A stretch of 64,000 nucleotides of DNA from Branchiostoma floridae (Eukaryota; Chordata; Leptocardii; Amphioxiformes; Branchiostomatidae): assembly GCF_000003815.2 (NCBI RefSeq), contig NC_049987.1, positions 8,064,877 through 8,128,876 of the forward strand, written 5' to 3'. The position numbers and the translations under genes are program-made. Below the pieces are notes generated by a model, which had not been told where the DNA came from, made no database searches, and was given only the letters and a program-made list of their open reading frames with translations. Positions 16,101-22,100 of this stretch are shown here, piece after piece. Every line of letters begins with the position of its first letter. The first letter of the stretch is position 1.

Positions 16101-19100
16101 CAAAAAGATATTGATGATAGTTACAACTGTTACAGTAGTTGTAACAAAAACAGCAGCTATGATTTTGAAATATACCAAGTTGCTGTTGTAGCTAAGCAAA
16201 AAGATGTGCTTTTAACTTATGGCCTTTTGTGTAAAACTGATTAAGCGCAAACGTAACTACACTACTTGGTGTATGTATCTGTTTGTGCTGGTTTGACACA
16301 AGAAAAGCTAACATGACTGACATGGTAATGGTAATTAAAACAGCTACCACCATACCCATTACCAATGGAGCATAACAAGAACCATTTACTCTGCTGAGAA
16401 GACATGGTCTCATAACATTTCCCTTTCTAATTGTCCGCACACATATGTACATACATGTACATGCATGGAATTCGCCTGTACTTTTTCATAGACACAAAAT
16501 GTATATCAAACAATGTAGCATGTGTACATATAGAAATGAAGGTTGTAGCAAAAGTATCTTCCAACCTTGTGGTCGAAATGGATCTCCACAAACTTGCCGA
16601 AACGTGAGCTGTTGTTGTTACGGACTGTCTTGGCATTACCAAAGGCCTCCAGGAGGGGGTTTGCTGTGGGCAGGGGAGGTAATGTTGTAGACAGTCAAAC
16701 ATTTATTACCTGCAAAGTATACGTACATATTGAATATTGTCACTGGTTCACCTTTATCCGAGGGTAACCTATATTCGTTGTTTGTAAAAAAAACGTATTT
16801 AGGGATATGAAGTCAAGGGACGGTGGTTTCAAATCGGAATATTTTGAAAATATGGCAAATTTGAAACCACAGTCCATAGATTTGATACTTGTAAATGTGC
16901 TGTTTTAAAGACAACGGATAAAGGTCAACCAACGGATAAAGGTGAACTAGTGTTACATCTAAGCCTTATAAAGGAAACAGCAATCTTGTTCCCTATCTAG
17001 AGTGTCTGATGCAAGAACATCTATTGCAAGAAAACAAGTCTTTTGGTTTTGGTTACAGTATAAAAAAAAGGCTTGGGGAAATACAATCACGTAACACCTG
17101 TATGTGATGTCAGCCTATGCATTTAGAGATCTGAAACATTGGTTTCACTTTGAATTCATGCAGATCAAATATAGCAAAAGATGTAGACTAATCAATCCAC
17201 ATGGCATATGACTCATGCATTTCGTGGAAGTAAAAACTGGTGGGCTGGGCTGTTGCATGCTTCTGTGGCGATCCTCTGGAGACCACGAGTGAGAAAGTCT
17301 GAGGTTCGAGTGGGTGGAGGTACATACTAACAAGAAGAGGCCAATCAACCCACATGGCATACATGATTCATGCATTCGTGGATGTAAAAACTGGTGGGCT
17401 GGGCCGCTGCATGCTTCTGTGGCAGCCTTCTGAAGACCATAAGGAAGAAAGTCTGAGGTCGGAGTGGGTGGAGATACTTACGGGAGGAGGCCAGAGTGTG
17501 CGGGGGCTGTGAGGGGTGGAGGAGGAGGGACAGTTCTCAGCTACAGCAGGAGAGGTGGGCAGATTTTCAGTGCAGAGTGTCAAGGATCTACCAGGAGGTG
17601 AAACAGCAGTCAGTGGGAACTGAGGACAGCTCAACAGACCAAGAAAAAACAATTGGGCTTCTTAAAGCCTGAGACGATAGACAGTTTCTGGTCTTGGGAG
17701 CCAGACACAAGTTATTTTAAGGCCTGGTCATATTCATTCTGCAATAATGCAAACTCTTGAATTCTTGCGTTAGCCGTGCACAAGTCCTACAAAATTTAGC
17801 TGTCCGTTGTTTAAGAAAAGGCTGTCTTAAATCCTTGTTGGTGGTTGTTTCTGTCACAGCCTACTTAAAAAATTTACGACATCAAAATAGTTATGTCTGT
17901 AACAAATGTAATTCTGCCAGACATGATAGTCAGAATAATATGGCTCCTGGTGCTGATAAAACTGCTATGCAAACTCAGAAAAAGGCTGAGGGCAGAAAAC
18001 ATGTTGTTACAGTATTCAAACTCATATCTAACCAGACATTTCAGTGTTAAGGCCCATCATGCATGAAAAGTCTATGGGGTTTAAAGATGTACAAAACAAA
18101 ATTGTGTATCCATGTTTTGACTGAATGCACACCACTTAGAGAGGTACAACAAAGATGGTTTGAAACATATGTTACATGATTGTACAACATGACAAGAGAT
18201 ACAGTGATGGTCTTACCTTCTACAATTCGCTGATCAATGATCATCCCTGATCCATGCGACTCAGTCAGATATCTGCAATCAACATACAAAACTAGTACTG
18301 GGACCTGTACAGATCTTTTATCATGTGTATGGAAACAAAGTCTAAGGATTGTGATTTAATAAAAAAACATCTGGTTTCCTACACTACAGTGTGGAGAGAG
18401 TATGAACTCAATCATCAAATGTTACATTCACAACATTGTGTTGTGCCTGGCTGCTACATCTGTATGATTGTGTAACAGTAGTTCACCTTTATCCCCATGA
18501 TAACCTATATCCGTTGTTTTTAAAATCGTGGTATTTACAGACATCTAGAGATATTGGTTTCAAATTTCAATATTTTCATAGTATTCCAGTCAGAAACAGC
18601 TAGTTATCTCTCGACTTCAAATGCCTAAATACTGATTTTATATACAACGGATAAAGGTTACTCTGCGGATAAAGGTGAACTAACATTACATCTTAGACAT
18701 TTTGCATGAGAGTCTGTTGTACCTGAGGATGTACTTGGTTGTCTCTGTTTTCACACCTACCTGAGGATGTACTTGGTTGTCTCTTTTTCACACATACCTG
18801 AGGATGTACTTGGTTGTCTCTGTTTTCACACATACCTGAGGATGTACTTGGTTGTCTCTGTTTTCACACCTACCTGAGGATGTACTTGGTTGTCTCTGTT
18901 TTCACACATACCTGAGGATGTACTTGGTTGTCTCTGTTTTCACACATACCTGAGGATGTACTTGGTTGTCTCTGTTTTCACACATACCTGAGGATGTACT
19001 TGGTTGTCTCTGTTTTCACACCTACCTGAGGATGTACTTGGTTGTCTCTGTTTTCACACATACCTGAGGATGTACTTGGTTGTCTCTGTTTTCACACATA

Positions 19101-22100
19101 CCTGAGGATGTACTTGGTTGTCTCTGTTTTCACACCTACCTGAGGATGTACTTGGTTGTCTCTTTTTCACACATACCTGAGGATGTACTTGGTTGTCTCT
19201 GTTTTCACACATACCTGAGGATGTACTTGGTTGTCTCTTTTTCACACATACCTGAGGATGTACTTGGTTGTCTCTGTTTTCACACATACCTGAGGATGTA
19301 CTTGGTTGTCTCTGTTTTCACACATACCTGAGGATGTACTTGGTTGTCTCTGTTTTCCCGGCTCCAGACTCCCCACTCACGATGATGGACTGGCTCTCCT
19401 TGTTCACCTTCATGTCACGGTATGTCTTGTCAGCTGCAGGGGGAGGGCAGAACATATCAATCATTCAATGTATGTGTCTGTCTGTCTGTCTGTGTGTATG
19501 TGTGTGTGTGTGTGATATAATACAGCATTATAAGAGTTAAGTAATAGAAAATTCATAACAATAACCTGTGTGCTTGTCAGTTGTCAAAATTACATATATA
19601 GGAAGTTCACTTTTAACACATGTAGGTTCAATGGAAGGAAGCACAGTCAGGTTTTAATGTCACCATCATTTCTTAAACTTAAACTTAAACTCAATTAATA
19701 TAAATAAGGCAATTCTCAGTGTCTAGTCAAGAATCTTTCATTAGTGCTAGACTAGGGATTGGTACCAGCACAGAAAATTCAGGTCCAGGTACAGTCCAGG
19801 ACCCGGTCTGGACCTGATCCTCCTCTAATCGGTCCAAAGTCCAGTCCACTGATTTTTTTCAGGTCCAGTTTTTCTGGACTGGTTCAACAAGAAAAAAACA
19901 GTTTGTACCATCAAAGATTAGACAGTACCCCTATACTATAGATAATATCCTACTGACCGATAGCGAACACGTGAGGAGGCATCGTTCCCAGAGACTTCCC
20001 CTGGTAGCTTTTGATGGTTTCTGGGGAATACAGCTTGGGGATGTCATGGTAAGGGTTGACAGCAATCAGGATGTTGGCCACGTACGTCTAGGGAAGGAAT
20101 AAGAAGTATCAGTAACTGGGATTCATGCACCACCAGGCATGTAGAGACCGACAAATGTGAATTCACAATCATTTCAAATCACCAAGAATCAATGGAAAGT
20201 ATACCCTGAGTAAGGAACAGTCGCTTTGTTTTAACTTGAGCTTTAATCTTTATGGAGCATTCTGATCTAAAGAACTATTATTCTGTTTGAACATCAGTTT
20301 TGCTTAAAACATATATTATAAGTTACATGGACTGTCTTAATTTGACATTTAGACAATGACTACGCCGAGAAGCTAGTATAATCATGGACAATCTGATCAT
20401 CATTATTATTTGTCCAGATAAAGGTACAGATGCAAATTTGCTGCTCAAAACTAATGATAGTGGCAGGTGTGAGAAACCAACTGGGTGCATTGAGCTAGTA
20501 CGTGTGTATATAAAAAATTAAAAGAAAACATATCACTGAAAGAAAATCCTCACATATATCTCCTCTCTCTTGTAGCGCAGGCGGATGTTGTGCAGGAGTG
20601 TTGCCTCATTCAGGAACATGAGAGAACAGTTGTCGTCCACGTCCTTCCCAGTATCCTCTTCGGCAGGGTACACATCACTGAAAGGCGCTGTGATTGGCTG
20701 AGAGAGAAGGGTGCAACCAACAAGATCAGTACATTGACCAATCAGGTAACAGCGCAAGGCTTTTCATTCTCCCTGGCAAGATTCGGTCCCTTTTCCCCAG
20801 CTTAAGGATTATAGGATTTCTTTCTTGTCTGCATTTCACAGAATGTTAAGGTGGCAGCGGCTTTCGTGAAACATTGACAATTTAGTTTGACCTTGGAATA
20901 GACCTTGGGCCAAGTGAGACTGATTTTGATTATGCAGAGATGTCTTATAAAGTAGCATGAGCATCTTGTATTCATAGCAGAATTGGTGTTACCAAATGGA
21001 AGGTTTTTAAAATCGTATAATAAGAAAAAGTATGATTCAATTTTTAAAACCTCTTACCGGTATTGGCACATATTGAATTTTTTTCAATTCCTTTCTAAAA
21101 TCATTTGTACAAGATTTGATTTTTCTTTTCGGTTTGTTTTCTTCATTCACAACTGTTTGCATGTCATGTTTTGTATGATTGACAACAATGTTAGAATACG
21201 TTGGATGTTAATTTGTTGGCAAATCTGCATTTCTTCTTTTTTTCTTTCTGTTCAGCTCATGCTTTATGTGATTGGTTACCAAAATATATGGTTGACTTTA
21301 GGCGACTTTTAGATTGTAGTTGTTTAAGCTGCATGCACAATTTGATCCAGCTTTTGCAAAACACAAACTCTAGTCTACATACCGCTGCGTCAATATTCTG
21401 AAAAAAAGCAAGGTGAATGTGTAGTTATTCAAGAAAATACAGTATGAAATAATACTGTTATGTCCATATATAACAAAACAATACAATACTTGATTGTTCA
21501 ATATCTCCCATCAGAATGGTTTGCAAGTTTATTTGGAAATAAGGGTTGTTTCAGACATGCAATAGAAATGGTTGGATATTCTTATCTTTTATTTCAAACT
21601 CACAAATACTAGTATTCTCTTTATTGTAACAACAATTAAGATATATGATCAACTTTTTCAAGGTTAAACTAATGAAATTGCATTTAGGGTACATCGGTGT
21701 ATTTTGATTTCATGGAAATGAATTTTCAATAAGTAACAAATATTCATGTACTGTAGACTAATTTGCTGAATCATTGAAAACAGCAACATTTGGGCCAGAG
21801 CAGTCAGTGTCTTTAAATATCTTTTATCGTTCAGGAATTGTCATCTTTTTCTCTCATTGATACAATTAAATTCTTGACTGAATGTTCAGGTTGTTAAATT
21901 TGAAATTTTGCTTTGTTTTCCAGTTATTACAAGTACGTTATGACTCTTACAGTCTTGTACATTGAAGTAAATTATAAACAGAATTCTGTCTACATTCAGA
22001 ATTCTATTGCTTGACTTCATCGTCTGATTATGTTGTGATTTTTGATTAAACAAAAGGGACAAAAAACATATTAACTTTACATACCCCCTCCAGACCCTGG

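Follow-up and report, generated by a model that had tools for sequence, protein, structure and literature searches.

The window analysed here, a 64,000-nucleotide stretch of the Branchiostoma floridae genome, carries a myosin VI gene on its minus strand, modelled with a human MYO6 sequence as the query, which gave exon-by-exon tblastn matches over positions 1552-23017. The model comprises 28 exons, with AG acceptors in exons 2-28 and GT donors in all 28; the exon 8 acceptor has a poor score (-2.80), which leaves the start of that exon uncertain. The reading frame, joined through exon 22 only, is open without a stop over exons 1-22 and gives an 836-aa translation. The model lacks one or more exons between exons 22 and 23 and, judged by unmatched human residues, one or more between exons 26 and 27. 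Among the best 60 of 145 PDB matches, the translation scored 1371 bits to 2bki_A, named only "unconventional myosin", and 1365 bits to 8w41_A, named myosin-VI; the other members of this group, which spans 1135-1371 bits, are named myosin VI except 2bkh_A, and the first chain after it is 7dhw_A at 537 bits. By sequence comparison the gene is a myosin VI, with a motor closest to class VI. Searched against the genome, the exons of the window matched at 60-98%, and no other place among the matches listed exceeded 71% or was a second locus at the myosin VI identity level.

The window also contains a MAP3K (ASK-like) gene on the plus strand at 50133-63139, with a MAP3K_TRAF_bd domain and kinase exons, and a retroelement at 26909-28807, recognised by a reverse transcriptase domain (Pfam RVT_1, E 1e-34) in a 632-aa open frame. 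At 37898-38636, TRF found a 385-bp tandem duplication (1.9 copies) whose 100% match indicates that it is either very recent or an assembly duplication.

On the minus strand of the myosin VI gene, the end of exon 4 and its 5' splice site are present in 17 tandem copies, in agreement with a preliminary description made from the letters of this DNA. The features of this region are as follows.

19328..19433, minus strand: myosin VI exon 4, 106 nt, P-loop, its last ~30 nt supplying the exonic portion of copy 1 (tblastn, gene model, PDB match)
18720..19357, minus strand: 38-bp tandem array of 17 copies of the exon 4 end and 5' splice site (TRF and unit listing)
19322..19327, minus strand: true 5' splice site GTATGT, the copy 1 donor (reading frame; phase fits exon 5 at 18272)
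18755..19289, minus strand: 15 decoy donors in copies 2-16, GTATGT in 11 and GTAGGT in copies 6, 9, 13 and 16
18717..18722, minus strand: decoy donor GTACAA of copy 17, whose 3' side continues into unrepeated intron
18217..18272, minus strand: exon 5, acceptor TGTTGATTGCAG (gene model)

TRF reports 18720-19357 as a single array (period 38, 16.9 copies, 97% match) with a score of 1227, against a best score of 42 in 200 mononucleotide shuffles of intron 4 plus exon 4, and the array is far beyond chance. On the minus strand a script located the 20-nt exonic core ACAACCAAGTACATCCTCAG 17 times without mismatch, in every case with GTA directly after it. The gene model and the unit listing bear out the description of the unit as the last codons of myosin VI exon 4, here ~30 nt, with the 5' splice site, and the exon number was right as well (exon 4 at 19433-19328, next modelled exon 5 at 18272-18217); the donor had been put at 19328, which is the last exon base, the intron starting at 19327. 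In plus-strand coordinates the donor G lies at 19327 (true), 19289, 19251, 19214, 19176, 19139, 19101, 19063 and 19025 in copies 1-9 and at 18987, 18949, 18911, 18873, 18835, 18797, 18760 and 18722 in copies 10-17. The proposed 38-bp unit holds for thirteen of the 16 intervals; the other three are 37 bp, corresponding to copies 3, 5 and 15, each one C short. The 16 complete units comprise only three sequences (nine standard, four with GTAGGT and three of 37 bp), and CAG/GTA is kept in 16 of 16 decoys. GTAGGT replaces GTATGT in copies 6, 9, 13 and 16 only, so the two donor variants do not alternate as had been thought. Lag matching of unit types along the exon 4 array, used to look for traces of its history, detected no significant periodicity at lags 1-8 (best P 0.135).

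Unique sequence flanks the array at both ends, and the GTACAA of copy 17 may be a relic of the ancestral intron start. A little past the intron-side end of the array is a short element at 18480-18683 with inverted ends by eye (TTCACCTTTATCC ... GGATAAAGGTGAA), the right part of which has at least 45 other genome matches, at 78-93% identity, among the matches listed.

Exon 4 ends in phase 2, and read-through of the true donor gives AGG TAT GTG TGA, that is, R-Y-V and then a stop after 7 translated intron nucleotides, which is the same for every decoy and confirms from the sequence the stop after three codons that had been described. U1 duplex energies, computed with the U1 5' end, are -10.3 kcal/mol for the true donor and for the eleven GTATGT decoys, -13.8 kcal/mol for the four GTAGGT copies and -7.2 kcal/mol for copy 17. 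In predicted U1 pairing 15 of the 16 decoys (copies 2-16) are therefore equal to or better than the true donor and copy 17 is weaker, so that the near-identical U1 target attributed to all 16 decoys is found in 15, the exception being the GTACAA of copy 17. A donor position matrix built from the other 26 donors of the gene scored GTATGT at 8.32, GTAGGT at 9.54 and copy 17 at 5.33. Duplicated strong donors in laboratory substrates are known to favour the intron-proximal site. A U1 "telescripting" role is unsupported, as the search of intron 4 for polyadenylation signals found no AATAAA and a single ATTAAA at 18360.

With 24-nt probes and a threshold of at least 18/24, we looked in the 27 modelled introns for repeats of the donor and acceptor that bound each one; these introns are gaps between modelled exons, and those after exons 22 and 26 each span at least one unmodelled exon. 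Intronic copies were found for 5 of 54 modelled splice sites, namely the donors of exons 4 (15 copies), 8 (3), 9 (1) and 26 (4) and the acceptor of exon 19 (4), and the best probe match to any other intron was 17/24. Four of these edge repeats come in addition to the one in the preliminary description.

12798..12925, minus strand: 36-bp unit with the exon 8 donor GTAACA, array reaching just 3 nt into the exon, 3 intronic sites
12089..12135, minus strand: 19-bp unit with the exon 9 donor GTAAAC, 1 intronic site
7861..8276, minus strand: 133-bp unit with the acceptor and start of exon 19, 4 intronic sites, copies more decayed and truncated with distance from the exon, by eye
3718..4026, minus strand: 67-bp unit with the exon 26 end and donor GTGGGT, 4 intronic sites at 18/24 or better

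Tandem repeats across exon-intron boundaries have been reported in the B. floridae globin genes BflGb6 and BflGb9 and were called "mirages" after work on Adh3 (PMC3087553). In the excerpts of that paper used here, mirage units measure 10-72 bp in Adh3 and 150-160 bp in the globins, the Adh3 mirage shows somatic instability, the draft genome contained one misassembled globin mirage, and RT-PCR together with the Adh3 data suggest that mirages leave regular splicing undisturbed. Mirages also occur in PGBD5 and troponin C, and the PGBD5 repeat numbers differ between assemblies (excerpts of PMC3902484). The exon 4 array likewise spans an exon-intron boundary, with a unit of 38 bp that lies inside the excerpted Adh3 range. 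As far as these excerpts go, myosin VI and the published mirages have in common boundary-spanning tandem repeats on the donor or acceptor side, AG/GT signals in the copies, and units of tens to about 160 bp. They differ in that the BflGb6 mirage has 6 or 3 copies per haplotype, against 17 nearly identical ones in the exon 4 array, and in that myosin VI has five edge repeats in one gene. The repeat type is already known in lancelets as the mirage, and the exon 4 array adds another case. A further parallel is intron gain through tandemly duplicated AG/GT proto-splice sites (Rogers 1989, cited in excerpts of PMC3087553), in which the duplicated segment also holds AG/GT, but the myosin VI intron is already present and no new intron is seen. 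In the open-licence literature searched we found no papers on duplicated 5' splice sites and, judged by titles and the starts of abstracts, no genome-wide count of mirages.

Across 20 other 10-kb myosin stretches of the genome, 9 of 354 exon sides have junction copies at 19/24 or better, against 2 of 354 control flanks; a single stretch, L014, contributes four of the nine, and inspection by eye showed two or more not to be mirages. The junction copies in L011 and L028 were rejected as mirages, being by eye an exon duplication and low-complexity sequence, respectively. Clear donor repeats are present in L016 and L017, the first of these a clear mirage that scored 18 and is outside the nine. The striking case is a myosin on C10 (L014), class-I-like in our own reading, which has multiple edge arrays, including a 90-bp donor repeat on the exon preceding the P-loop exon, a 40-bp donor repeat and the following two.

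L014:3332-4430 (C10:21156331-21157429): 50-bp unit x 22, with the acceptor and first P-loop codons (GESGAGK)
L014:9420-10000 and L030:5-597: 53-bp donor-side repeat, about 21 copies, with a 33-nt coding stretch that AG precedes and GT follows

The 50-bp unit also holds further GT sites, so that a copy resembles a 15-nt microexon, and its CAG/GTGAG is donor-like too. Further arrays lie at 3942-4134 and 6844-7363 in L030, the 10 kb next to L014, and L015 (C1:21366000-21375999) looks like an incomplete duplicate of the L014 myosin region and carries related arrays.

Within the myosin VI gene, five of ten arrays touch an exon edge against 1.35 expected under random placement (P 0.004), with a null in which placement forbids exon overlap beyond about one unit; a laxer null without the overlap limit gives 2.24 expected (P 0.046). 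The ten arrays were hand-picked from TRF (period at least 16, inside the gene, overlapping rows merged), omitting two microsatellite arrays and the one that lies within exon 25, and counting 8298-8347, near the 7861-8276 array, separately as non-edge. In 18 of the 20 other myosin stretches (L010 and L015 dropped, periods of at least 16 kept) no splice-edge enrichment was detected, 5 of 25 arrays touching an edge against 3.9 expected (P 0.34), with approximate exon ends taken from tblastn, with L014 matches below position 2430 dropped as decoys, and with rows that are non-independent, the tandem paralogues L018, L019 and L029 being included. The count by eye was 6 of 25, the L014 array at 5135-5253, which repeats an exon end, having been scored non-edge. 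This test is small and its exon ends are approximate, yet it is fairer than the myosin VI count because the latter comes from the locus that raised the question. In the MAP3K-like gene of the window, none of 8 matched exons overlaps any TRF-listed array. Our conclusion is that minisatellites occur commonly in these genes; some land on splice edges and persist there since the exon-side copy remains functional. Since no enrichment was detected in the 18 stretches, a dedicated splice-targeting process is not required, though one might still operate.

We consider it about 80% probable that the exon 4 array is a mirage, that is, a neutral minisatellite spanning an exon-intron boundary, with the copy-1 donor spliced and decoy products going to nonsense-mediated decay (NMD), and the array is probably harmless. 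Of the two options in the preliminary description, a neutral minisatellite begun over an exon edge is the better, and it fits the amphioxus mirages of the published excerpts. Evidence for the mirage comes from the 17 copies with homogenised units (three unit sequences among 16), from the four further edge repeats of the gene at donors and one acceptor, and from the larger arrays of the C10 myosin (22 copies of the 50-bp acceptor unit, about 21 of the 53-bp donor unit). By analogy, the published mirages, some of them copy-number variable, point the same way, as the excerpts report them without splicing disturbance. The gene is open through exons 1-22, and therefore splicing at the copy-1 donor gives a normal myosin VI motor. 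Against the mirage, the strength of decoys 2-16, at least that of the true donor, together with the intron-proximal preference, would make decoy use likely, and the edge arrays of the myosin VI gene exceed the random expectation.

For a mirage at exon 4, one duplication would have linked about position +3 of the intron to about position -30 of the exon through the short filler TGTGT, and slippage or unequal exchange would then have multiplied and homogenised the unit, with copy 17 perhaps retaining the old intron start. The copy-1 donor would be chosen through exon definition, which favours the 106-nt exon over the decoys' 144-711-nt exons. Decoy-spliced transcripts would end after R-Y-V and presumably be removed by NMD, and the array would be tolerated as intron sequence while its copy number drifts.

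Poison exons and NMD-coupled alternative 5' splice sites are a known class, and decoy use in myosin VI would be predicted to yield a premature stop in the same manner; the likeness lies in that predicted stop, and the usage and conservation of the array are putative. The array could accordingly be read as a poison-splicing switch, in which intron-proximal decoys are used according to copy number or splicing factors and NMD tunes the level of myosin VI, and every decoy leads to the same early stop, with 15 as strong as the true donor and four of them stronger (-13.8 against -10.3 kcal/mol). However, similar arrays occur at unrelated sites, acceptors included, the globin mirage of the excerpts differs in copy number between haplotypes, and published mirages are described there as leaving splicing undisturbed, so that, judged from sequence, an NMD or dosage switch is unlikely; the splice-efficiency or NMD switch given as the other option in the preliminary description finds no support here. 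It would be equally improbable that copy-number-variable donor arrays form a heritable splicing rheostat, in which each strong decoy cuts the share of correctly spliced myosin VI.

The copy number of 17 is a count from one assembly, and misassembly could have inflated it, given that the copies are nearly identical and that the published excerpts describe a misassembled globin mirage and PGBD5 numbers that vary between assemblies. We regard such an artefact as very unlikely, as the three distinguishable unit types stand in non-periodic order between unique sequence on both sides and edge repeats recur elsewhere. Ratchet (recursive) splicing, in which each CTCAG/GTATGT would serve as acceptor and then donor in 38-nt steps that leave the mRNA unchanged, is set aside as highly improbable: any step would restore an identical exon end and donor, but the unit makes a poor acceptor, its score of -0.47 being exceeded by 26 of the 27 modelled acceptors and a good pyrimidine tract being absent, and an intron of 38 nt would be very short.

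In the exon 4 region 17 near-identical 5' splice sites stand in line in one transcript and one of them gives the right protein, a natural experiment on splice-site competition that would be hard to construct with such clarity at the bench. Exclusive use of the exon-side donor would mean that exon definition prevails over the intron-proximal preference; with decoys in use, the output of the gene could depend on copy number, and were a rheostat to operate, minisatellite drift would become expression differences among individuals and tissues. The five edge repeats of myosin VI and the larger arrays of the C10 myosin suggest a phenomenon common enough for study in bulk.
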